A DNA stretch of 64,000 bases from Amphibalanus amphitrite (lineage: Eukaryota > Arthropoda > Thecostraca > Balanomorpha > Balanidae): NCBI RefSeq assembly GCF_019059575.1, contig NW_024882782.1, positions 1 through 64,000 of the forward strand. The letters run 5' to 3'. The position numbers and the translations under genes were made by a program. Below, piece by piece: positions 3,563 to 64,000 of this stretch. Positions within the stretch are counted from its first letter, which is position 1. Every line of letters starts with the position of its first letter. The notes under the pieces were generated by a model. It searched no databases. It had not been told where the DNA came from and was given only the letters and a program-made list of their open reading frames with translations.

Positions 3563-4147
3563 CTGGGGAGTCGTAGCATAACACTCAGGCCGGTTCAGGT
3601 TTCAGTCCGACACACAGAACCGTCCGGCGACACGCCCTGGGGGCGACATATGGGCGCGCTCAGGGCTCAGGTACAGGTCTCGCGAGATTAAGCGGTAGGT
3701 TTTGCACTTTTACATTTCCGGTTATATCTCAGAAACTAATCGATCTACGATGAAGCCATTTTACACGATCATGGCCGGCTTGTTACCCAACAAGTCGATC
3801 GCATCTTCAACACTTAAAAGCTTAAGACGACGAAGATATAACCTGAAGTACACTAAATTTTCTAGGTGCAAAACCTACCGCTAAAACCCGCGAGCCCTGT
3901 AAAATGCACAAGGGCCCCGGGTGCAGTGTCTGTGTGTCCCTGACTGACCTGCAGCGGTGACGCTGTCACAGAAAGCACCTGTTCATTGCCCAATGGATCC
4001 AGCCCAGTTCCGGCCGGCAGAGTGCCCGCACGTACGCAGCCAGTGTTACGGTCTGTGTTCGATCTATGTTACGGTCTGTGTTCAATCTATTTTACGCCCT
4101 GTATAACGACCTGCGTTACGGCTTGTGTTACGGTCTGTGTTACATAC

Positions 4148-4282
4148 CCTGTTCTGGGCGGTCTCCACCTTGACCCTCTTAACGTCCCAGAGTCGGTATT
4201 GGTAGACGTGCGCGTTCTCTGCCGAGACGTCCTGCAGGTGAACGAGCAGGTTCTGTAGGCCGACCAGCGTCTCAGCTGGCAC
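4148..4282 (-). CDS. Exon C, unit 2
   Basis: Copy of exon C with one visible change (LWDV for LWDA) and one in the LRD segment. The splice signals are kept. Confidence 0.5.
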
Positions 4283-4548
4283 CTGAGAAGGTCAGGAGAG
4301 GGTAGGGGAGGTCAGTGGTGTACTGGCGTCTGACATAGACCAGCGGACAGGGGGAGGGGAGAGGGAGAGGAGTCTGTTGGCGCAGAAGGACCGTTCCGCG
4401 CTTGAAAGTGGACATATCTGAGGACCGTTCCGCGCGCGCTGACACTGCCTCTAGAACCGTTCTGCGAGCAGTCAGACATGCAGACCGGATTGATGTTTTG
4501 AAACTTTGACATAATAAACTTTAATTAAATCGACACAGGTACTCTAAC

Positions 4549-5315
4549 CGCATGTGTTTTTTTATATCGCGGACAAAAAAGTGGGGATTGATAGGGTTAA
4601 GCAGGGAGTCACCGATGTTAGATCCCTCTCTGGGTCCTTTCATAGGTCACGGTCCTGACCCGAGATAGCTGAGCTGTGTCGCAGCCCTGACCTCAGACAG
4701 CTGAGCTGTGCACGCCGTCGGCTCGGCCGTCGGTCGCCACAGCCGCTGACGCCAGTGTCCAAACAGCTCCAAACAATATCCGGCCCTGTATAGCAGGATA
4801 AGCCATCAGAGGCGGGAGTGATCAATGGAGGGACGCGAAACACTAACGCCAAGGGGATGACAACTGCTGAGGAATAAAGAAACTACATGAGATGATGTTT
4901 TTCGTACTCCAGCGTAGTACGAAAAACATCATCTCACGCTCTCAGTCCCAGCGGATAAAAACAACACCTAAGAAAGAAACTACATGCAGGTACACTGGGA
5001 ACACGTCATGCTGGAGTTGACGTGTTCCCAGCCCGTCCTGTACCATGCAGCCCGTTCCGGTGATCACTCACGCGGGGCCAGATATTGTTGGGAGCTGTTT
5101 GGACACTGGCGTCAGCGGCTGTGGCGACTGACGGCCGAGCCGACGGCGTGCACAGCTCAGCTGTCTGAGGTCAGGGCTGCGACACAGCTCAGCTATCTCG
5201 GGTCAGGACCGTGACCCCCTATGAAAAGACCCAGAGAGGGATCTAACATCGGTGAGTCCCTGCTTAACCCTAACAATCCCTACTTTTTTCTCCGCGCTAT
5301 AGAAAAAAACATGCG
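4549..5315. repeat. Long inverted repeat, unit 2
   Basis: Same structure as in unit 1, with a different shortening of the right arm and the 83-bp hairpin insertion in the loop. Confidence 0.8.
4890..4972. mobile_element. 83-bp hairpin insertion with 14-bp duplication, unit 2
   Basis: The stem arm GAGATGATGTTTTTCGTACT pairs perfectly with its complement across a 7-nt loop (4,889-4,935), followed by a 37-nt single-stranded tail. AAAGAAACTACATG is present on both sides (4,876-4,889 and 4,973-4,986) and once in units 1, 4 and 5. This is either an insertion with target duplication or a segment lost from the others between direct repeats. Confidence 0.7.
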
Positions 5316-6002
5316 AGTTATAAAAACACATCCCTATCAACCAGTCCCAAACAGTGTACCAAATTTGAGCGCAATCGGCGTGGCAGTTCAGGGTTCAAGA
5401 TATATGAGCAACCCAAAATCGCTACTGCAGCAGAATAACGAACACTCTTGGCCCTTCACGTCGCACGTGTCACGACGCTCACCATGATACATCAGTTGTA
5501 GTCAATAACTCACCAAGATACATCAGTTGCAGTCAATAACGAGATGGAAGGTATAGGATTACGCGCAACAAAGAGTAACGCAGGTCAATCAGCCCAGCGG
5601 TTGCTGACTTACAAGCCTATTAAAAACGTTACAGGAATACGCTTCGCTAGCTCAAACGTAATAGAGTAGAATCATTACATATATGCAATTGCTACTATTT
5701 CCTGGTTTTCTTTATAGGCCAAGGCTTGGTAACTGATAACTCTGCTGCCCTGTAATGGGTCCGGCCCGCTGTGGCGAGTGAAGACACTCGCTCTGACTGA
5801 CTGGACCGCCAGCCGAGACGCTGCTGACTCTGGTGGTGAATGGTGAGCGGAAGAGGAGAAAGTTTACGCCAAAGCTGAAGCAACTCTACATTGCTGTACA
5901 GCTAATACGCTTTTCACCTGGTGGCCAGTAGAGGAACTAACAGTTACTACAACTGACCGTCAGAAGCACCCAACACACACCGTGCCGCTCCCAGTAACAT
6001 AC

Positions 6003-6124
6003 CAGGATGTAGACCCCAGTCGGGCAGCGCTCCGGCGTCCGGCAGCCGCAGCTGGTCCAGCAGTGACAGCAGCCGGCCGGCGCTGCCCTCCGGCGCCGTC
6101 CGACAGGCGTTCACGGCCACCACC
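6003..6124 (-). CDS. Exon B, unit 3
   Basis: The cleanest copy of exon B. It begins VVAVNACRTAPEGSAG and has both splice signals. Confidence 0.5.
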
Positions 6125-6419
6125 CTGACGGACAGACGTTACACGGTCAGCAAAGAGACGACACTCGGTCAGCGGACAGTGGCGTTGGGTCATCGGATGG
6201 CAGAGCATCGCCGCAGCACACAGACCAGACAGGACTGTGCCGACAACGCAACCCCGTTGGAGTAACATGACCCTAATAAATGCACCGAAAATGCTCTGGT
6301 CTGTCTCCATTACTTATAATAATAAAAAATGAAAGAACAACTGAGATGAGGGAAAGGAGTGAGGCGTCTGTTAGGGTCCCCGTGCAATACGCCCGGTGCG
6401 GTGACTGACCTCTGCGCCG

Positions 6420-6542: not shown

Positions 6543-7129
6543 CTGGGGAGTCATAGCATAACACTCAGGCAGGTTCAGGTTTCAGTCCGACACACAGAAC
6601 CGTCCGGCGACACGCCCTGGGGGCGACATATGGGCGCGCTCAGGGCTCAGAGGTACAGGTCTCGCGAGATTAAGCGGTGGGTTTTGCACTTTTACATTTC
6701 CGGTTATATCTCAGAAACTAATCGATCTACGATGAAGCCATTTTACACGATCATGGCCGGCTTGTTACCCAACAAGTCGATCGCATCTTCAACACTTAAA
6801 ATCTTAAGACGACGAAGATATAGCCTGAAGTACACTAAATTTTCTAGGTGCAAAACCTACCGCTAAAACCTGCGAGCCCTGTACCATGCACAAGGGCCCC
6901 GGGTGCAGTGTCTGTGTGTCCCTGACTGACCTGCAGCGGTGACGCTGTCACAGAAAGCACCTGTTCATTGCCCAATGGATCCAGCCCAGTTCCGGCCGGC
7001 CGAGTGCCCGCACGTACGCAGCCAGTGTTACGGTCTGTGTTCGATCTAAGTTACGGTCTGTGTTCAATCTATTTTACACCCTGTGTAACGACCTGAGTTA
7101 CGGCTTGTGTTACGGTCTGTGTTACATAC

Positions 7130-10331: not shown

Positions 10332-11043
10332 CTGGGGAGTCATAGCATAACACTCAGGCAGGTTCAGGTTTCAGTCCGACACACAGAACCGTCCGGCGAC
10401 ACGCCCTGGGGGCGACACATGGGCGCACTCAAGGCTCAGGTACAGGTCTCGCGAGATTAAGCGGTAGGTTTTGCACTTTTACATTTCCGGTTATATCTCA
10501 GAAACTAATCGATCCACGATGAAGCCATTTTACACGATCATGGCCGGCTTATTACCCAACAAGTCGATCGCAGCTTCAACACTTAAAAGCTTAAGACGAC
10601 GAAGATATAACCTGAAGTACACTAAATTTTCTAGGTGCAAAACCTACCGCTAAAACCCGCGAGCCCTGTACCATGCACAAGGGCGCCGGGTGCAGTGTCT
10701 CAGGGCCTCGGCTAACATGTTAACTGGTGGGCCAAATGGCCCACCAGTGACCCGAAATGGCCCACCAGCCTCAAAGATTTGGCCCACCAGTAATTTTCCG
10801 AAAAATCGAAGTTTTCACATTTTTCACTTTTCAAATTTAAATAGCAGATCATTTCGTACATTTTCAGGCTGTAAAGTACCCATCGGTGAAACATATTCTT
10901 GTGAAAAAACTTCAACCTATTGTTTGCAATATCCTCTTGGGTGGACTATAGTACCCACAACTTTAAAAAAAAAAATCCACCACCTACGTCTTTGCTGTAT
11001 GATTTTTACTTCGATTTCCATGTGACGTCACAATACTTCCATG

Positions 11044-13788: not shown

Positions 13789-15768
13789 ATGACTAAAATT
13801 ATCGTTCAAGAACTGACGGCACTGTTGGAGAGGCAGGTGAAGAGAGCCGCCGAGGCCGACAAGCGCCTGGAGCGTTTGGAGAGGCTGCTGTACAGAGAGC
13901 CCTCCGCGGGGACCGGGACGGGCACGACGGCCGGAGTGTCAGAGTCGGGGGCTGAGCGAGGCGCTGAGGGATCCGTTGGACCAGCTGCCGCCGCCCGCCG
14001 GACTGCCTGCCTGCCGGCGTCGGCGTCTCCGGCCCCGCACGTGAAGTCGGCTTCGACGTGCAAAGCCCGTGTCGAGTGCAGTGTGCGCGACAGTGAGACA
14101 GGAGCGGTGAGCAGGCTGGAGGACTCTGAGCCGACGCTCAGACACGCCGTGACAGTGGGGGAAACGTGGAGTGCCCATGTCACGTGCCAAGACCTCTGCG
14201 GCACCAAGGGACATTTCGTGGCCCACCTGTCGGCCTACAAGAGGGACCGCAGTCGGCCGAGTGTCGCCCATGCCGCCGCCGCCACCAATCGTCAGTTTCT
14301 TGAGCGTTGCCCTACCTGTGGTCGTCGCCAGCACGCCGGCGGAGACACGTGTCGCGCCGCTGGCGCCATCTGTCGTGCGTGTGGCGAACCAGGACATTTT
14401 GAGGTGGTGTGCCACCAGAGGGCCAGCACCACAGCGGTGATGCCATCTGCAGTGACAACAGTACGCGACTCTCCGGGGGTGGCGCTAGTAGCGGTAGCCG
14501 CCGGCACCGCCGTGTCACCGCCGCCGGCGGACACGGGCCCAGCCGGGCACACTGCGCTGCAGCCCACGGAGCTGAGTGACGCTGCTGACGTCCACGGAGC
14601 CTCGCCGCCGCCGGCGGGGGGCTGGCCAACGCAGACAACGGACAGCAATGAAGCCCCGGACAACGCCGTGTTGCCGCCGCCGGCGGACACGGGCCAACCC
14701 GGGGCCACTGCGGTGCAGCCTGCAGGCCCGGATGCAGCGGCTGTAGCTTACGGAGCCTCGCCGCCGCCGGCGGGAGGCCTACAAACGCTGAGCACGGGCC
14801 GAGGTGCAGCTGCCGGCCCCGCCGTGTCACCGCCGACGGCGGACACTGGCCAGATTGGGTGCACCGCAGCGCAGTCTACCAGGCCGGCTGCCGCCTACGG
14901 AGCCTCGCCGCCGCCGGCGGGAGGCCTACCCACGCGGACCAGGGACGGAGGTACAGCCGCCGGCTACGCCGTGTCGCCGCTGCCGGGGGACACCAGCCAA
15001 GCCGACTGTTGTGCGGCACAGCCCACCGAGCTGAGTAAGACTACTGACGTCTACGGAGCCTCGCCGCCGCCGGCGGGAGGCATGCCAACTCGAAGCACGG
15101 ATGGAGGCCCAGCCGCCAGCACCGCCGAGTCGCCGCCGCCGGCGGGCACCGGCCAAGCCGGCTGTAGTCATGCGGCGCAGCCTACCGAGCTGGCTGACGC
15201 CTACGGAGCCTCGCCGCCGCCGGCGGGAGGCCTGCCAGTACGGAGTGGGGACGGAGACCCGCCCGAACAAATGGTAGCGGCTCACGCCGCCGCGCAGCTC
15301 CTCCATACGCCGCAGGGATGCGTGTCCGCCGGTGACAAGTCCGACCGGCGCGGTGACACGAACCTCGGTGACACCACCCTCCACTCGGTCGAGGTGGTGG
15401 ATGACGTGCTCGGTCCGACCGTCGATGACGAGGTGTGGGAGGACGCTGAGGACCCGCTTCACGCAGCTGCCGTCGCAGCTATGCTCGCTGAGCGGGATAC
15501 GGAGTGCGACTCGCGTCTGCCGCCGCTCGTGGCCCCGAGTCTAAGGGTGACCAGAGCCGCCGCTGACCGCGACCCGTGGCCGCCACCGACACCAGAGCGA
15601 CGCCTGCCGCGGACCTCCCCGTGCGACGGCGGGCGCGTCCGCTGCAAGAAGCGCCCGAGACGCCGCGGAAGAGAGCGAAGGCGCCGCCGTCTGCACCGCG
15701 CTGCGGTGGCCTTGTGCGCCCGGCCCCCGGAGGGTCCGCTGTGGCGCCTTGGAGTGAAGACGATGTGA
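13789..15768 (+). CDS. Gag-like zinc-knuckle and repeat protein of the LTR element
   Basis: An open frame of 659 codons fills the interior of the LTR element. Residues 9-35 look like a short coiled coil. Residues 174-208 hold two zinc knuckles (CPTCGRRQHAGGDTC and CRACGEPGHFEVVC), of the paired kind known from Gypsy nucleocapsids. Residues of about 235-500 are tandem repeats of roughly 50-57 residues, each with SPPPAGG and PPPADTGQ cores. The C-terminus is basic and arginine-rich. I do not recognise a capsid domain. Known relatives bind element RNA; any function of the repeats is a guess. Confidence 0.8.
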   Translation: MTKIIVQELTALLERQVKRAAEADKRLERLERLLYREPSAGTGTGTTAGVSESGAERGAEGSVGPAAAARRTACLPASASPAPHVKSASTCKARVECSVRDSETGAVSRLEDSEPTLRHAVTVGETWSAHVTCQDLCGTKGHFVAHLSAYKRDRSRPSVAHAAAATNRQFLERCPTCGRRQHAGGDTCRAAGAICRACGEPGHFEVVCHQRASTTAVMPSAVTTVRDSPGVALVAVAAGTAVSPPPADTGPAGHTALQPTELSDAADVHGASPPPAGGWPTQTTDSNEAPDNAVLPPPADTGQPGATAVQPAGPDAAAVAYGASPPPAGGLQTLSTGRGAAAGPAVSPPTADTGQIGCTAAQSTRPAAAYGASPPPAGGLPTRTRDGGTAAGYAVSPLPGDTSQADCCAAQPTELSKTTDVYGASPPPAGGMPTRSTDGGPAASTAESPPPAGTGQAGCSHAAQPTELADAYGASPPPAGGLPVRSGDGDPPEQMVAAHAAAQLLHTPQGCVSAGDKSDRRGDTNLGDTTLHSVEVVDDVLGPTVDDEVWEDAEDPLHAAAVAAMLAERDTECDSRLPPLVAPSLRVTRAAADRDPWPPPTPERRLPRTSPCDGGRVRCKKRPRRRGRERRRRRLHRAAVALCARPPEGPLWRLGVKTM

Positions 15769-53420: not shown

Positions 53421-54297
53421 ACCTCGCCCGTATTGGCGTTTTGTCAGCCGCGAACGTATAGGGTGGGGGGGGGGGCGTTGCCCCCATTGCCGTTTGGCCG
53501 CTGATCGAGCTAGAGCTTCGCGAAAAAAAAACCGAGCGTGCTGCCCGTGACGAGAGGAAGACGATGATGCCCAATTTAAGGTCCTAGGTCATTGGTTCAT
53601 GGTTGACCTTCCAGGTCAGGTCAATGACCCAAAAGTCGGGAAAATTGGGACCTGTTAGAGCGTCGTAAGTGTGGCTGAGCTTTTCCGGGGTGCTGATCAC
53701 GAATATCGTGTTAGTGTTGATCCCAGAAGATGTCTTCATGCATTTAGGCCAGGTCGGGTCAGGTCAACCAGTAGTGGTCCTGCTGGGTATCCGTAGTACG
53801 TGTCAACTGCCTCTGACAGCTTCGTAACATGTTACGAAGGCACTTAAAGTACTTCGTAAATGTTCAAATGGTTGCTGAATTCGAGTTCAGCTCCAAAAAC
53901 TAGCCTAGAAACATGTAAAACTCGAAAAAGTGAACTGAGGTCATCAAAGGTCAATGACCTGACCTGACCTTCAGGTGACCTTCACACCCATCCAAATGCA
54001 TGGGACAAACATCATATCACATGTTTGAACGCTTGAAACCACGAAAAGACTGCAAACGCGCGGCTAATGCGAGCCAACATACGCCGAATCGCGATCCCGG
54101 CCAAACATGGTCTCGAGAAATAGGTCACAGGTCAAAGGTCACTTGGGTAAGGGTGATTAAAATTTCAGGGTAGATGCAAAATTGATTAACTCGAGATTAC
54201 TGAAAGTTTCGTCGCCATTAGCCGTTTTTACGCGAGTTATTCGCGAAAAATCGAGGGGGGTGGGGTCTGTTCGATCCCTCCCCCTATACGGGTAGGG
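53421..54297. mobile_element. piggyBac-like MITE, 877 bp
   Basis: Left end ACCTCGCCCGTATTGG after TTAA, right end GGGTAGGG before TTAA (54,298-54,301). It aligns nearly throughout with 35,424-36,309. Confidence 0.85.
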
Positions 54298-54412
54298 TTA
54301 ACAGAGGAAGACACAATTTCCCCTTACCTGTACTTGTTTTTGAAGTGTTTCAAGCGTCATTTTGAGAAGGTACTTTATTTAGGGGGTGCATGTGCACCCC
54401 CAGAACCCTTAA

Positions 54413-54670
54413 CCCTCGCCGGACCTATTGGTTTTCTACATACGCGCCGGCCGAGGGGGAGGGCGGGTACGACCCCCCCCCCCCTCGCCGTTTCGCCCCT
54501 GGTGGAGCTAGCGCGTCGCGGAAAAAACGAGCGTGTGCGCCGTTACGAGACGCAGAGATTGGTACCCGATTTTAAGGTCCCAGGTCAACCGGTGACCTCT
54601 GAGGTCAGGTCAAGTGCCCCAAGGTACGGTTCAGAAAAGCGCCTATGTGTTTGTATTGTTCGCGTCGCGC
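54413..54670. mobile_element. piggyBac-like MITE, left part only
   Basis: CCCTCGCCGGACC after TTAA, then a G/C-run hairpin and AGGTCA motifs. It stops matching at about 54,670. The same family is at 61,450. Confidence 0.6.
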
Positions 54671-55212
54671 TGACCTTAGTTGCTGCCCGGCCGGGGCCGA
54701 TAACGGTGGCTGGCAACAGCTGTAGATGCGGTCACGTGACGCCCTGGGGCGTCCTGGCGGTCAGTGCAGCGCAGTCGGCTGGCGGGCTCGCCACACTTGC
54801 GTTCGGAGCGGCCTGGGCCGGCCGGCGGGCGAGCCGTGCGAACGTGCGCCAAATCTTGGGCCGAGCGGCCTGTCGCTGTTGGACCGAATCTCCTTGGGCA
54901 GTTCGTTTCTTTGCATTGGCAGGGAATACGTCCTTGATCATGCGGTGATGTCTTGCACCACTTTCAGGTAATGTGGGAATTAATGCGTGCTAATTCTGAA
55001 AAAGGGCCACTAGTGGTGCAATGGCGAAAACCTCACCGGAGACTATCTGACTCGCCCCGCCAGGCAAAAAGGTACACAACCGCCAGAGTCGACCACCGGC
55101 AGGACGGCGCCCCGCACCCACGCACCGGGAGCGGACCGCACGCCGGGGCCGGGGCCCGACAGCCAAGGACTTGACATCGCTAGCCTAACCAAGGGGGGGG
55201 GGGGGGCACACT
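54671..55212. other. GC-rich stretch, no gene recognised
   Basis: Frames are long only because the sequence is GC-rich. No domain was recognised. Confidence 0.45.
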
Positions 55213-55584
55213 CTCACCGTGCACAGCGATGGCTTTGACCGCCATTTCACTAATATCTTCACCATCGCGCCTCGTTCTAAATCTCTGGCAGTTTGAGTTT
55301 TATTCACGATCGATGGTAACACAAGTCAAATTCCTAAAACCATTGGTTTTAGGAATTTGACTTGTGTTGCCATCGATCGTGAATAAAACTCAATCATGTC
55401 TGATTATTTACAAATCTCTGGCAGTGAAGGACTAAGTTTGCGGCGCGGCTGTGGCGCTCAATGTCGTCTAACTGCTCATCCCGTTTCTGTAATGACTTAC
55501 GACATGCGCGCACTTCAGATTCCAGCTGATCAATCCTCTGATCCCTTAAGTAGATTTCCGCTTCCAGCCTTTCCATCCTGTTTT
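55213..55584 (-). pseudogene. LINE ORF1 (coiled-coil type), distal part
   Basis: The minus strand has MERLEAEIYLRDQRIDQLE, DEQLDDIERHSRAANLVLHC, then, past a 120-bp insertion, RDGEDISEMAVKAIAVHGES. A coiled coil followed by DDxExxSRxxNLVxH is typical of LINE ORF1s with an L1- or CR1-like trimerising helix. Its upstream half is at 62,293-62,580, across element Z, and the frame is continuous at the duplication. It ends in a C-run at about 55,200. Confidence 0.75.
55292..55411. mobile_element. 120-bp palindrome insertion with 13-bp duplication
   Basis: 55,293-55,393 is a 101-bp palindrome: 50-bp arms with one mismatch and a single central base, followed by an 18-nt tail. AAATCTCTGGCAG occurs at 55,279-55,291 and 55,412-55,424. 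The LINE frame is restored if the insert and one copy are ignored. Confidence 0.85.
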
Positions 55585-56225
55585 CAGAGTTTGGTGTTTG
55601 TTTAATTTTTCAAATAAACAAACATAAACAAACTGTTCACGAACAAATGTGTTCGCGAACAAGTGACGTCATCGGTCAAATTTTGGTAAACAAACAACGA
55701 ACAGTTCGCGAACGTTCATGCGCATAGACCCGTCAACAGGGGGCAGCGGGGGCGCTTGCCCCCCCCCCAACTTGGGAGCCGAGGGGGCGGCGCCCCCTCA
55801 ACATTGAGGCAGCGAGAAAAGATCTTTCCTCCCTTTTCCGGACTTTTTTCCTTCTTGTTTCCTTTATACATCTAAACATCAATACACGGCATTTTCCTTG
55901 CCATCTGAATGGTTTCTGCTGATACAGTACCGATTTGACAACATCTGCTCTTGTCATCCCGCTTTGATTTGAGCCTGACCTTGGCCATAAGTTTGGCAGG
56001 CCAGATTTTATACTGCACCAGCTTGAGTCAACTTTGAGAAATACATAACGTACAACGGTGGTAAAATCGTTGCTATAGGTATAACACAGTTTACCCGCTC
56101 CGGGTGTGAGGGAGGGGTGTGGGGAAATGAGCACGTGGCGCCCTCGGAGGGCCGGTATGGGATTAAAGCTCAGCGACACTAAGGGCTTGTGTGGTGCCTT
56201 CGGTTATCGGTGGCACCCTCAGAAT

Positions 56226-56515
56226 CAGGGCTGCGGAGTCGATGAATTTTCGACGACTCCGACTCCGACTCCGGCTTTCAAAAACCAGCTCCGACTCCGA
56301 CTCCGACTCCGGGCAGAATTGTCGACTCCGACCGACTCCAACTCCGACTCCGACTCCGCAGCCCTGCTAGGTCTGCGGAGTCGACAGATTTTCGGTGACT
56401 CCGACTCCGACTCCGGCTCGGGTTTCTAAAATCGAGTCATCGACTCCGACTCCGACTCCGGTCACAACTGTCGACTCCGACCGACTCCGACTCCGACTCC
56501 GACTCCGCAGCCCTG
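56226..56515. mobile_element. Dimer of a hAT-like MITE
   Basis: CAGGGCTGCGGAGTCG begins and CGACTCCGCAGCCCTG-type sequence ends the unit. CTCAGAAT is duplicated (56,218-56,225 and 56,516-56,523). A second inner end pair at about 56,366-56,368 shows two copies of about 140-148 bp in tandem. The interior is (GACTCC)n. Copy B has the empty site (CTTAGAAT). Confidence 0.88.
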
Positions 56516-57115
56516 CTCAGAATCACCCTGCCCTCAGAGCCGCCGGTAAGGAGCCTTTAGAGGCACCGGTGTGGGGCCGCCATGCAGGTGCCGTTGTGGG
56601 CGCTCAGAGGTGCTAGTGTGATTCTCTCAGAGGCGACGATGAGGGTCCTTACAGGCGTTGCTGTGGGCCCTCATAGACGCTGGTGAGTGGTGTGGAGCCG
56701 TCACAGACGGGTGTGGGGCCTTTAGAGCTGTTGACGCGAACTCTCTACAAGCCGGCAGGGGGTCTCAGTGACCGGCAAGGGGTCCTTAGGCCGGCAGAAG
56801 AAGTCCTGTGGGGTCCTTAGAGACCGGCATGCAGTGGCGTCACCAGGATTTTTTGGTTGGGGGGGGGGGGGGGGCAAATCTTGCAAACCTAACCTAGGGT
56901 ACCCCCAAATCTAGTTTTCTCATCGGTTTTAGGCCACTTATTTTTCAGAGCTTGGCAACGAAAAAAAAGAGAAAATATTTGCAAAAAAGTGAGGTATTCC
57001 GTCTCAGCTGAGTGAAGAAACTACATTTTTGGCAACCTGGAATAAGGTTTTAATCTGCCAAATGAGTTGCTGAGCCAGTGAAAGAGGTGGACTTTTCACT
57101 TACATGCTTTCTTTC

Positions 57116-57405
57116 AAAGGGCGGAGCTTCCTATACAGCTGGTGGGGCGGCTGCCTCACCAACTTGGTATTTTTCCCCACCAATAAGTGTTTTACCCCAC
57201 CAACTTTAGATGGTTTCCAAGACTTTGTCGCTTTGCAAATTAATCTTTTTCGTATTGAAGAGCTTTGTGTCAGTTAAATGCAAAATATTTTATCTGTAAT
57301 GATAGGTATTGATTCAGTGTGGCATTTTATTCAACTTCATAATCGGACATTGTGGGTTTGACGACTTTTTGCCCCACCAACTTCCCTGGAAAAGTTCCAC
57401 CCATG
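57116..57405. mobile_element. 290-bp hAT-like MITE, second member
   Basis: Complementary in orientation to 34,127-34,419 and aligned along its whole length. TTTCTTTC lies on both sides (57,108-57,115 and 57,406-57,413). The low-complexity flank leaves the exact start uncertain by a base or so. Confidence 0.8.
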
Positions 57406-57594
57406 TTTCTTTCTTTGTGACCCATAACCCCTAATTTGGGGAGGACAAGCTGCCCCAACGGTTCCTGGGTGTCTAATGAAAAGTTGTGGGGCACCGCCCC
57501 CACGGCCCCAGAGTTGTGGGGGCAAGCTTCCCCCACTGCCCCCTCCCCCGGTTCCCGCGCCTATGTATCGGAATTTATGAAATTATGTTGGTAG

Positions 57595-58104
57595 CAGGGC
57601 TGCGGAGTCGGAGTCGGAGTCGGAGTTGGAGTCGGTCGGAGTCGACATTTCTGCCCGGAGTCGGAGTCGGAGTCACCAAAATCTTACCGACTCCGACTCC
57701 GGAGTCGGAGTTAACGCTAGCGGCTCAACGTCATGCACTGCATCTATATGATTGACGATACTGCGCTCGAAATTAGATTTTGTCGAAAAAAAAGACCATT
57801 TTGCTGTTGTGGACGAACGTTTTCAGCGAGACAAGCAGAAGACGGTGAATTCCCAAGAACCTGCTTTGTAATTCTGCATGCTATTTTTAACGCATATTTG
57901 CAACGCAAAGTCTTGGAACGCACAAGGGATCGTTTCAGGCAAGATAAAACGTCTCCATTATGAACTTCAATATCATGGTATGGATTTTAATAAAACCATC
58001 CGGAGTCGGAATCGGAGTTGGAGTAGGAGTCGGAGTCGATTTTTGAAGCCGGAGTCGGAGTCGGAGTCGGAGTCACCCTAAAATCCATCGACTCCGCAGC
58101 CCTG
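57595..58104. mobile_element. 510-bp hAT-like MITE with GGAGTC arrays
   Basis: CAGGGCTGCGGAGTCGG at the left and its complement at the right. GTTGGTAG is duplicated (57,587-57,594 and 58,105-58,112). Both ends carry (GGAGTC)n, with an unrelated core of about 260 bp between. Same family as the dimer at 56,226. Confidence 0.9.
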
Positions 58105-58751
58105 GTTGGTAGATTTCCGATTTCGATTCCTCCAGCTGGGGGGGGGGGGGGGCTCAAATACATTACGAGCCCGCCCCCCCCCCCGGCCGAAAAGTTGGAG
58201 GGGCTCAGGCCAGTATCACAATTCAATATTATCAAGGCAGTTTGCTATGCTAAGAACGAGGAATGCATTTCTGCTGCTTTCAACATCAACAAACATCCTT
58301 CTGATTATCAGGTTTCAAGTGTGTCAAAAAATAAATATATATAAACACGTAAGGAACGTACCCCGTTTCCGTAGTCAGTGAAATAAGAACTGATAAATGA
58401 AAACAAAGATATCCATAATAAATTCTATTGAAGTGGCATTGGGATCAAACTCAAAGATCAAACAAATAAAAAATGAAAAAATAAAAATATTTCTGTTTAG
58501 CGACGGCAGTCGACATATCATCTATAATTTGAGCACACCTTTTCACTCAATATACCCTGGAGCACACAACTATAGTTTGAGCTTTCTCACGCCGGCAGGC
58601 GGCACCTAAAGGCGAGTACAAATGTATGGTGAAAATGAAGCCTATCGTATGTTAGCAGAATATGGCGACAAATGCACCGGCCCGTGGGCAGGCAGCCCGG
58701 CTTAGGGCGGGTTAGCCAGACAGCCGATAGATGGAAACTGGCCTAAAGGTG

Positions 58752-60557
58752 CATAGACCCGGGAACAGGGGGGGCAGCGGGGGCGCTTGCCCCCCCAACT
58801 TGAGAGCCGAGGGGGCGGCGCCCCCTCAACATTGAGGCGGCGAGAAAGGATCTTTCCTCACTTTTCCATACTTCTTTCCTTCTTGTTTCCTTTATGCATC
58901 TAAACATCAACACTCACGGCATTTTCCTTGCCATCTGAGTTGTTTCTGTTGATACAGTATCGATTTGACAACATCTGCTATTGTCATCCCGCTTTGGTTT
59001 GGGCCTGACCTTGGCCAGAAGTTTGGCAGACCATATTTTATGCTGGATCATTTTGAGTCAACTTTGAGAAATATGCACATAACGTACAACGGTGGTAAAA
59101 TCGTTGCTATAGGCATAACACAGTTTACACGCTCCGGGTGTGAGGGAGGGGTGTGGGGCAATGAGTGCACTTAGGTGGCGCCCTCGGAAGGCCGGTATGG
59201 GATAAAAGCTCAGCGACACTAAGTACTGGTGTGTGTCACCTATCCGTGCTTCTATCCTCAGGATACTGAAATCCTTCTCCTCCAAGCCGCAACCCCCCTC
59301 CGGGCTGGACAGGCAACTTTATCTCATGCGGGCTGCTCCCTTGGAGCGGCACCGCTGCTCCTGAGGGAGCGCACCCCGTAGCCGGGTGCAGTGAGTGCCT
59401 TGGGGCTGGGTGGCCTGTCCTCTGGACGGGCTCAGCCCCGGCGACTCACTAGGGTGCCTGCCCAGACCAATGTCTCCCCCTAATTCCTATCATCCTTCCG
59501 GCTCTGCAATGGTCTTGTCGACCGAAAGGGCCTAACCCAACAAAACAAAAAACAAAAGTACTGGTGTGGTGCCTTCGGTTATCGGTAGCACCCTTAGAAT
59601 CACCGGCGTAAGGCCCTCAGAGCCGCCGGTAAGGGGCCTTTAGAGGCACTGGGCCGTCATGCAGGTGCCAGTGTGGGCGCTCAGAGGTGCTAGTGTGATT
59701 CTCTCAGAGGCGCCGATGAGGGTCCTTACAGGCGTTGCTGTGGGCCCTTACAGACGCTGGTGTGGAGCCGTTACAGACGGGAGTGGGGCCTTTAGAGCCG
59801 CTGACGCGAACCCTCTACAAGCCGGCAGGTGGTTCTCAGTGACCGGCAAGGGGCCCTTAGGCCGGCAGAAGAAGTTTTGTGGGTCCTTACTTAGAGACCG
59901 GCATGGTACTGTCAGACGCCGGTGAGGCCCTCAAAAGTCACCAATGGGTGGCCTTTAGATGCGCAGGTGTTGGCCGTTGGGTCCTCAGAGCCACCGATAT
60001 AGGACTTTAATAGGCACTGGTGTAGGCACTCAGAGTTGGGCGTGTGAAACCCTCAGAGACACCGGCACCGCTGTGGGCCCTCACAGGCACCGATGAGTTG
60101 CCGTTATTCCCCAGTTACCGTTATTCGGCCATCAGAAAAATAAGTGTGGGACCATCACATGTGGGAAATGCCCCTAGAACTGGCCCCTCATAGGCCGATA
60201 AGAACTCTCAGAGGCCAGCAACGGCCTTTGGAGACCACCGAGGGACCCTTAAAGCCGTAAGAGGTCCTCAGAAGCCGGAGTGGGGCCCTTATGGAGATCT
60301 TAGTGTGGCTATTTAGGGCCCATGAGGTGTTCTAACGAGCCCCATGGGGCCCTTCTGAGTCGAAATATGGTCATCGTTAACCTTCAGCGGTCAAATGGCG
60401 CCGGTCAAGAGCCCCTCGGACCCGAGGGTCCCTTTGAACCCAATGGGGGGGGGGGTACGTGTCCCCTAAGAGCCCCAGCTACGCCACTGTTTCATATGAA
60501 TCATGTCAGGTATTTTAGGCTCGCCCCCCCAACTTGAAAATCGTTCCCGGGCCCCTG
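58752..60557. mobile_element. Copy B of the copy A family, 1.8 kb
   Basis: Ends CATAGACCCGGGAAC and GTTCCCGGGCCCCTG. TAAAGGTG is duplicated (58,744-58,751 and 60,558-60,565). It is a hAT-like element nested within W, which is itself within copy A of the same family. Internal degenerate repeats of GTGTGGGCCCTCAGAG type. A 322-bp retroposon sits inside. Confidence 0.88.
59234..59555 (+). mobile_element. 322-bp retroposon with A-rich tail
   Basis: AAGTACTGGTGTG is duplicated (59,221-59,233 and 59,556-59,568). Its 3' end is A-rich (CAAAACAAAAAACAAAA). Copy A lacks it. The segment ending GTCGACCGAAAGGGCCTAAC looks like a LINE 3' tail or a SINE. No coding part. Confidence 0.8.
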
Positions 60558-61449
60558 TAAAGGTGACCGGCAGGCGGCGCGGCGCGGCTTTGTACCGATG
60601 CTAGGCTGAGCTCATTCGGAGTAGAGGCTGCGCCGCATGTTCATTGCGAGTGTTTCTCTGAAGGTACCCCCATTTTTCGATCCCAAAATCTCCTCGGATC
60701 TGCATCGATCTCAGAGGGTGCCCATTTGGAGGTTGGGGGGCATGTTGCCCCGCTTGCCCCCCCCCCCTCCCCGTGGTGACGCCACTGCCGGCATGGTACT
60801 GTCAGACGCCGGTGGGGCCCTCAGAGTCACCGGTGTGGGGCCCTCAAAAGTCACCAGTGGGTGGCCTTTAGATGCGCAGGTGTTGGTTGGGTCTTCAGAG
60901 CCGCCGATATAGGGCTTTAATAGGCACTGGTGTAGGCACTCAGAGTTGGGGGTGTGAAACCCTCAGAGACACCGGTGTGGGCCCTCATAGGCGCCGACGA
61001 GGGCCCCACAGTTGCCGTTATGGGGCCTTCAGAAAAATAAGTGTGGGACCATCACAGGCGGGAAATGCCCCTAGAACTGGCCCCTCATAGGGCGGTAAGA
61101 CCTCTCAGAGGCCAGTAACGGGCCTTTGGAGACCACCGAGGTGCCCTTAAAAGCCGCAAGTGGCCCTCAGAAGCCGGCGTTGGGCCCTTATGGAGATCTT
61201 AGTGTGGCTATTTAGAGCCCATGAGGTGCTCTAACGAGCCCCATGGGGCCCTTCTGAGTAGAAATATGGCCATCGTTAACCCTCAGCGGTCAAATGGCGC
61301 CGCAGGGCCCCTCGGACCCGAGGGTCCCTTTTATCCCGATGGGGGGGGGGGGGGGTGGTACGTGTCCCCTTAGACCCCTAGCTACGCCACTGTTTCTTAT
61401 GCATCATGTCAGGCATTTTAGGCTCCCCCCCCCCAACTGCCCCTGTGGT

Positions 61450-61990
61450 AAAGATGGGGTAGATAAGACCCCCTCCTTAGCCGTTTCGCTACTAATTGAG
61501 ATAGAACCTTGCGGAAAAAGCCAGCGTGTGCGTCATTACGAACCACAGCGATTGGTATCCGATTTCAAGGTCTTACACCAACCGGTGATCCCTGAGGTCA
61601 GGTCAAGTGTCACAAAGTAGGGGTTTGATTTTTGGTAAATAACTTCGCCACAAATAGTGGCAGAGCCGCGATTGTGGCACCATCGTGCTCGTCGTGGCCA
61701 GGCGCTTCGAATGATATACTTTTTGTTTGGATTAGGTCTTTTTAGGATGTTGACCTCAAGTCAAGGTCAGGTCAAAGCCACTCGGGTCACAAGGCTGCAT
61801 GGAGGATGTCATGCTGCATATCATTCGATGTGGCAGTTCTTTCTGAGTCAATTGATGGCTCAACCGACTCGCTAGCTCAATTTGATCGGAAGTTATTAGC
61901 GAAAAGCTCCTACTGCATCTAACAACCTTAGTGGCGTCTTACATGACGTCATGCAAGGTCTGAAATGCACAACTTAAGCCTCAGCGTTGC
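61450..61990. mobile_element. piggyBac-like MITE relic inside Z
   Basis: Matches 54,470-54,620 (GCCGTTTCGC, GATTGGTATCCGATTTCAAG) and has AGGTCAAGGTCAGGTCA-type motifs at 61,755-61,780. No clean TTAA ends. Confidence 0.55.
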
Positions 61991-62292
61991 AAGAATAGTT
62001 ATGAATCACGATTCCCTGTGATTGAGATATAACTGGTGCATTTTTCACATGTAAAACATATGTTGCCTGCAGTCATGTCTGCATCGTATGATAACAATTG
62101 CTCGGAAGATATCAAAAATGATGACTTGTTCATGAACGTTCATGAACGTTCACGAACTGTTCGTGAACAGAGAATCGTTGGTGAACATGTGACCTTGAAT
62201 GCCAAAATTCGTAAACTATCAAATAAACAAACAAACAAACATTACATTGTTCACAAACTGTTCATGGACAAATATGCAAACACCAAACCCTG

Positions 62293-62580
62293 CCTGTTTT
62301 CGTACGACGAGATCTTGTTTTCCATTTTCTGCCACAACTTTTCGTTACTTTCCTCGATGCAACTTTTCATCATTGCTTTGATGTCTTCCAAAAACTCCGC
62401 GTCTTTAATTACTTGCTCTTTTCCTTTAAGAGAGACGTATCTCTGTTTCTTCTGATCCATGCGACGAAACATGTCCCCAACAGAACGCTGCCGCTTACGG
62501 ACCGTAGGACCGGGGCTGGCACAAGCCAGCTGAAACGCAGTGTCGTCTGAATCGCTGAGTGCAGACGCAGAGTCCATCAT
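62293..62580 (-). pseudogene. LINE ORF1 (coiled-coil type), N-terminal part
   Basis: The minus-strand frame begins MMDSASALSDSDDTAFQLAC and continues RQRSVGDMFRRMDQKKQR and EKLWQKMENKISSYENR up to the Z insertion. It starts at ATG (62,578-62,580) and is open throughout. It is acidic at first, then basic and helical, as LINE ORF1 N-termini often are. Its continuation is at 55,213-55,584. Confidence 0.72.
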
Positions 62581-63300
62581 TGCGTCTCACAACAGCAAAG
62601 CACAAAATGCACCGCGTCACAGCAAGCGCAGAATCACATTTCGCGGCTGGATGACCGTTCACTTACTCTGGCCACGGGCCGTAGCGCGCCCGCACAGGGT
62701 CTACTACTCGACCGCCACTCTGACCGCGCGCGGCCGCCGACCTGTCAAACATACCGGAGCTCCGGGGCCCGACCCGACCTCGCCGGCCGCCCGGGACGTA
62801 CTGACGTACTGCGGTTAGATAATACCAATCCACGTCCCAGTGCAGTGGCTGCTCGATCGCAATTTTCCTGCCCCATCTCTCCCGCCAGGCTAGACTTTGC
62901 CCGGCACAGCGTCGCCTCAGTGCCTCGGACGGTGACCCGTTCAAAGGAGCTCACAATTCGTATGGTGCCGTGGCTCTCAAACCAACACAGAGCAGTGAGA
63001 CGCACAGGCTCACTTTCCATATAAGGCGAACGCCGAACAGCTGATTCCGACGCCGGGGTTTCATTCATGCTAAGGCTCCCAATCACAGCGCGGCATTTCA
63101 GTTAGTGTCGAGCGAAAAAGCTGCTATGCCCCGCCCCTCCATCACGTGACCCTTCCCTCACGTGGCCTCAGTCACGTGGTGTTTCCACTCCTTGGCGCAT
63201 GGCGGCGCTAGTCTCGCAGGGGCGGTGGTTGCTTGCTCCCCGCCGTCCGGGGGTGATGGGTAGCACGTGCTGGTGACTATAGGGGAGAGAAGTCATATTG
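62581..63300. promoter_or_regulatory. CpG-rich region with E-box cluster
   Basis: Three CACGTG sites lie within 36 bases (63,143, 63,159, 63,173), with a fourth at 63,264, next to a GC box (CCCCGCCCC) and ATGGCGGCG. It lies upstream of the minus-strand LINE ORF1 and could be the LINE's internal promoter or a host promoter. bHLH-zip factors such as USF, MITF/TFE or Myc bind CACGTG. No transcript start can be set. Confidence 0.35.
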
Positions 63301-64000
63301 CGCCCTGTTCTTAAATGCGCCACACCTTCCTCCTGCCCAAAATACGATTCGAACGAATACTCGAATGTGTGCATTTACTTCACCACCATTAGCCCGCTCG
63401 TCTTCCGGTCCACGGGGGCAGGTGAGGTGTCTCAGCTTTCTCGCAGACCATTCTTTGTGATTTTCTCTACTTTCTTACGCGAAACAGTCCATTTCGACCT
63501 TTGCTAGTGTCATGGTTTATCTTAGAAATAGTGATTCAACTAATTATCATTGTTAATTGTCCGTTTAATGGCAGTTTTAAAAGCTTATCACCACTGTGGC
63601 TTCGCTGTCGCCGCCATATTTCAAGCTCATGAAAAATGTGTTCCATTTTTAATTGCGCCCACCCTATTTGCGCCCTATTCTTCAACCCAGAGAAACAGCA
63701 TCTGGTGGTTGGGAGACATTTCATTGAACACTTTGATCATTAGAGCGCTCACCTTACCATTACCTTAGCCTTCACAGCATAACTGGTCAATGGGCTGACA
63801 CGTTCAAATAGGCTACTTAGTTAGGTGGTAAACCGTTGTTTTTAATAGGGCGATTTTACATGAGAGGTATGGGCGCTTTTTGATAGGGGAGTCCGTAAAT
63901 GTGCCCTTTGCAGGTGTGTCGGAAAACTTTCCTCTTGTTAATTTTTCTGGGTGTGATACAAATTGGGAGTTTTTAAATTTTATTTGATGCCAAAATAACT
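63301..64000. other. No gene recognised
   Basis: AT-richer sequence with short frames only, running to the window edge. Confidence 0.5.

Follow-up and report, generated by a model that had tools for sequence, protein, structure and literature searches.

Does a deep nest of transposable elements record a series of events at the locus where it is read, or a structure that was built once and then copied? The question is raised by the first 64,000 nucleotides of contig C1285 of the Amphibalanus amphitrite assembly (hereafter the window), in which a first-pass annotation had described a six-level nested insertion: a long interspersed element (LINE) ORF1 split by a hAT-like element (Z), which holds an element (A) split by another (W), which holds a second member of A's family (B), which holds a retroposon (R). 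Searches were made against the whole assembly (807.5 Mb, 2644 contigs). All six levels were found, but their interpretation as a six-step history of one locus has to be divided: the nesting of separate families and the order of their insertion stand for this locus, whereas the outer levels form one block that is copied at ten further places, and just B and R are local to the window.

Shared joints and private insertions

The nest has a depth of six and comprises nine or ten elements in total, P, G1, G2 and probably M being insertions additional to those first described (Table 1). Target duplications were read at the joints of Z in the ORF1-like fragment, W in A, B in W and R in B, and all four are exact. 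The insertion of A into Z is the only one of the five originally described steps without a duplication, as had been claimed, because 16 bp of Z were lost at that site; they are present in all 13 solo copies of Z examined.

Ten further contigs carry the ORF1-Z, Z-A and A-W joints within a common block up to 17.6 kb long. These sisters (C1239, C1171, C1172, C2104, C2508, C2128, C1824, C220, C332 and C66) are the ten best relatives in the search with A, in which the best 40 of 1799 first-look candidates were scored. They align with the window from position 54635 or slightly later, C66 being the most distant (96-98% identity), and in C220 the block was followed to C1285 position 72224, past the end of the window. 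The joints of P, ORF1-Z, Z-A, A-G1 and A-W occur in all ten sisters, and the W-G2 and W-A joints in eight, the other two being C1172 and C1824. The right-hand A-Z and Z-ORF1 joints occur in six; the rest are C1172 and C1824, where they are replaced, C66, which was fetched to a point short of the right A-Z joint, and C2104, whose contig ends before it. The replacement is common to C1172 and C1824 (L011, L015) and runs from window position 57046 to 64642, where 6.3-6.6 kb of other DNA stand in place of most of W, the right parts of A and Z and the right half of the ORF.

The W-B joint is found in none of the ten sisters. At the corresponding position, every sister that keeps that part of W (8/8) has a clean empty site with a single TAAAGGTG and no footprint.

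Substitution distances between copies range from 0.19 to 1.11% in a 1.6-kb comparison of the window and nine sisters, and from 0.08 to 1.28% in a 1.3-kb comparison of the window and six. C66 was left out of these comparisons, its own insertions breaking the compared stretch; among the copies included, the most distant is C332, not the window, and C1171, C2128 and C2104 are close to one another. Beyond the window, C1285 66001-66800 is matched at 99-100% by ten full-length places (that of the window included, and one new, on C1231) and in part by C1834 and C1680; the remaining 28 of the 40 places scored are 91-93% identical. The same joints and the small distances indicate that the nest was copied as a block. 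Segmental duplications are defined as sequences longer than 1 kb, at least 90% identical and of low copy number, and the block has these properties.

Several copies have insertions of their own. The window has gained B, and R inside B. C220 has gained a 1181-bp insert flanked by TTAA and a 6005-bp insert flanked by GATGT, C66 a pair of inserts whose overlaps measure 8 and 9 bp (CTTTAGAG and GGGTCTCAG), and C1171 one 1189-bp insert; C1171 and C2128 have a common insert at 61372. An 890-bp insert of C1239 (L009:401-1292), with the 5-bp duplication AACCA, lies in the exact centre of the P palindrome (window 55338-55342). C2508, C2104 and C332 have no insert in the stretches compared. Also in C220 (L032, oriented 4058-6257), an insert of 2.2 kb, flanked by TA and bounded by the inverted ends CACTGAAAGAAA, contains three R-type retroposons head to tail. 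The sharing of joints together with the private insertions points to one shared nest that was copied and then had separate histories. Insertions common to all sisters predate the duplication and private ones postdate it; the duplication event dates between the insertions of W and G2 and that of B.

Table 1. Features of the nest and of the block that contains it (window coordinates)
Feature	Coordinates	Strand	Observations
Shared block, window part	54635..64000		Long stretches about 96-99.8% identical among copies; left break at 54635 against six sisters
Q (so named here), terminal stretch of a high-copy repeat, at the block's left edge	54640..55011		31/40 scored places match about that stretch only
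ORF1-like fragment, left (C-terminal) part, coiled-coil, level 1	55213..55584	-	43% identity to the C159 ORF with Z and P removed
P, 119 bp, inside the ORF fragment	55293..55411		Mostly palindrome, 50-bp arms 98% alike; 14-bp duplication AAATCTCTGGCAGT
Z, inside the ORF1-like fragment	55585..62292		Ends identical in 13 solo copies; duplication CCTGTTTT
A, hAT-type, A/B family, inside Z	55723..61445		No duplication; 16 bp of Z gone at the site
G1, GAGTCG-rich, inside A	56226..56515		8-bp duplication CTCAGAAT; joints in 10/10 sisters
W, inside A	56832..60787		Perfect 14-bp inverted ends; duplication CCGGCATG
M, short high-copy element, inside W	57119..57408		Flanks match at 9/12 letters only; insertion less certain
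G2, second GAGTCG-rich element, inside W	57595..58104		8-bp duplication GTTGGTAG; joints in 8/8 sisters retaining that part of W
B, second A/B-family element, inside W	58752..60557		Duplication TAAAGGTG; private to the window among eleven copies
R, SINE-like retroposon, inside B	59234..59555	+	A-rich end; 13-bp duplication AAGTACTGGTGTG
ORF1-like fragment, right (N-terminal) part	62301..62579	-	Matched by DNA search in the window and 7 sisters (8/8 candidates scored)

Element families and the outermost level

Comparison with solo copies bore out the proposed termini of Z and the A/B family and placed the right end of W within 5 bp. The 13 solo loci of Z have identical ends and differ from the Z of the nest by approximately 6-8%; in 11 of them the seven flanking letters shown are repeated in register, in one the repeat is a base out, and in the last no more than three letters are shown. 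For the A/B family, ten solo loci and a copy at C1285 73757-75272 were set against B; all eleven agree with it at the left end and ten at the right. The 8-bp duplication is exact in seven of these copies (one lies in a GA repeat and carries little weight) and matches at seven of eight letters in two (one in a C-run); it is absent from one, and one has lost an end. The copy at C1285 73757-75272, approximately 11.5 kb past the nest, is a third member of the family on this contig, with its own 8-bp duplication CTGACACA. For W, the solo-copy comparison covers the right end: its approximately 134 bp were matched at 31 of 40 scored places, all outside the nest copies, with 84-87% identity, and the match ends no more than 5 bp from the terminus in 30 of the 31. 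Among the 40 places scored for each, the left body and the inner body of W are complete in the window and eight sisters but in none of the rest. The M stretch alone was matched at 31 of 40 scored places, the remaining nine being the window and eight sisters.

That A and B belong to one family was upheld. They seem, from sequence identities, to be of different subfamilies, because the four best relatives of B are 97% identical to it whereas relatives common to A's list are 84-87% identical (among the best 40 of 2214 first-look candidates scored for B). The further claim that nesting within one's own family through an intermediary is rare was not borne out, the family having drawn 1799 and 2214 first-look candidates (40 scored in each search). 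If these candidates are taken as approximately 2000 copies, and 500 bp of younger DNA per copy are assumed, about two cases result; as a rough estimate, one or two indirect self-nestings per genome would be expected. Ten solo A/B copies are 1332-1513 bp long with little or no extra DNA, and the true expectation may be lower.

The hAT superfamily is characterized by 8-bp target duplications and short inverted ends that start with CA and finish with TG. Exact 8-bp duplications flank Z, W, B, G1 and G2, and none flanks the A of the nest; short terminal inverted repeats are found in Z, the A/B family, W, G1 and G2. No transposase was seen in these elements; autonomous relatives were not sought. 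R has the variable-length target duplication (13 bp) and A-rich 3′ end of a short interspersed element (SINE). ARAGORN identified no tRNA gene for R and Rfam no family at its gathering threshold in 54000-64000, although a worn SINE head could escape either.

The outermost level resembles a coiled-coil ORF1, but the name LINE ORF1 is a guess. Pfam gave weak matches, several of them to coiled-coil families and none above cut-off, and comparison of an intact 412-amino-acid relative on C159 with solved structures gave nothing below an E value of 0.06. The longest reading that starts in the 3.2 kb after the C159 ORF has 99 amino acids; no domain search was made there. With Z and P omitted, the fragment aligns with the C159 ORF over 176 amino acids with ten gap positions, none of which is at a Z or P joint; judged from the predicted proteins, this alignment is an empty site for both insertions. 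The left half of the fragment, used as a protein query, found the eleven block copies and 27 distant places at 26-51% identity (150 of 185 candidates scored). The distant relatives have 166-504 amino acids, and 26 of the 27 have no internal stop. A copy of ORF1 lacking Z was also sought at the DNA level and none was found, all eight scored places being copies of the block. Just upstream of the ORF start is a repeat of 470 bp (window 62811-63281), approximately 91% alike and inverted with respect to two others at C1285 64182-64644 and 76586-77055.

Origin of the eleven copies

The reading that we favour, and consider very probable, is that an old hAT-type nest in an ORF fragment was multiplied with its surroundings by segmental duplication, after which each copy received separate insertions. 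P and Z would have struck the ORF1-like fragment; A would have entered Z, then G1 and W would have entered A, and M and G2 would have entered W. The ends and duplications show the Z, A, W and G steps to be cut-and-paste transposition of non-autonomous hAT-type elements that duplicate 8 bp, with transposase from a presumed source. The finished nest was then carried to at least ten other places within a larger duplicated block, by a putative duplicating mechanism, and the copies acquired their own insertions, which in the window are B and R within B.

Several observations weigh against this account or limit it. For most copies the block's right end was not located: besides C220, C1171 was followed to 69426, where it is just 95-97% identical, and guessed right-end places fetched on C66, C332 and C1231 gave no match. 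C66 is more distant than the other sisters and stands outside the distance comparisons. The nearest relatives of B are just 97% identical, yet comparison with the sisters, most copies of the block lying about 0.5% apart, would place the arrival of B within approximately the last 0.5%; either a cut-and-paste move of an old copy or gene conversion keeping the sisters alike would explain this discrepancy. Finally, the nesting leaves the order of P and Z, of G1 and W, and of M and G2 unfixed.

The dispersal of at least eleven copies, most of them near-identical, and the presence of high-copy repeats at the block's left edge and within its right part would also be expected if the whole block were a large mobile element or lay inside one, with the nest as passenger DNA spread by transposition. 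This possibility is unlikely. The left breakpoints differ (54635 in the window against six sisters, 54823 in C332, 54897 in C1172 and approximately 55019 in C1824), which argues for segmental duplication rather than transposition, and no open reading longer than 157 amino acids was seen in 62200-72300, where no domain search was made. The idea that one big element extends from the left-edge repeat to the right-part repeat was considered and rejected, the non-nest contigs listed for the one and for the other having no overlap (40 scored places each). If the block were, as we doubt, a compound mobile unit, a transposon graveyard mobile as a whole that recently spread to at least eleven places, each copy would hold an internal clock against which the order of insertions could be read.

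The age of B could be reconciled with that of the copies if B had been in the nest before duplication and was then lost from the sisters, since the 97% identity of its nearest relatives implies an apparent age greater than the sister distances. To leave one clean TAAAGGTG and no footprint in 8/8 sisters, such a loss must have happened precisely and more than once, unless gene conversion spread it, and we find it highly improbable. An origin of the copies in faulty assembly (haplotigs or chimeric joins) is hardly credible: the distances match heterozygosity in size, and the block is no more than 130 kb from a contig end on the three contigs whose length permits a judgement, but eleven is too many for two haplotypes of a single locus, differing private insertions with clean duplications occur in several sisters, and the outer joints recur across independent contigs.

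The three sufficiently long contigs are C66, C220 and C332 (1.28, 0.77 and 0.66 Mb), in which the block lies at most approximately 130 kb from the contig end; the other eight are shorter than 260 kb. This position may be a mark of assembly breaks or of chromosome ends. Arrays of TTAGG are abundant in the assembly (9894 overlapping matches, against 5 in a reversed control), as fits an arthropod; in the places listed (C1-C3) they lie inside contigs and not just at their ends, and they give no answer on the proximity of the copies to telomeres. Elsewhere in the window, a 232-bp repeat with 97-99% identity is found at 788-1019, 3672-3901, 6647-6885 and 10441-10672; it recurs once, inverted, in the block (C1285 68563-68794), where the C1171 sister lacks it. 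An ORF of 659 amino acids at 13789-15768 has repeated proline-rich motifs and a weak zinc-knuckle match below cut-off, and is perhaps gag-like.

Comparison with known nests

The nest illustrates that a reading made at one locus can mislead, since levels that resemble separate local events may be one inherited, duplicated block. Nesting is already established as a clock and the case is an ordinary one, yet it provides a clean before-and-after clock. Should the mechanism of duplication come to light, the eleven copies could serve to date when several hAT-type, TTAA-type and retroposon families of this genome were recently active.

Like non-autonomous hAT elements similar to miniature inverted-repeat transposable elements, the nest elements have 8-bp duplications and short inverted ends; they differ in the inner body of W, which is restricted to nest copies among the places scored, and no transposase was seen. 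The accounts of REANNOTATE (PMC2672092) and TinT (PMC3014933) describe nesting in diverse eukaryotic genomes and the use of nested clusters of transposable elements to infer the order of insertion. The present nest is like those described there in that elements within elements yield an order of activity, and unlike them in that sister copies of the nest supply empty sites and a second clock. A close parallel is the Drosophila cluster HDR16/NEST_FBti0020655, in which INVADER1 nested once in COPIA2 and the nest was multiplied by duplication and received later insertions (PMC2672092 section 28). On the favoured reading the present nest, too, was made once, multiplied by duplication and then struck again; the Drosophila copies are in tandem, whereas those described here are spread over eleven contigs, have more levels and consist mostly of hAT-type elements.
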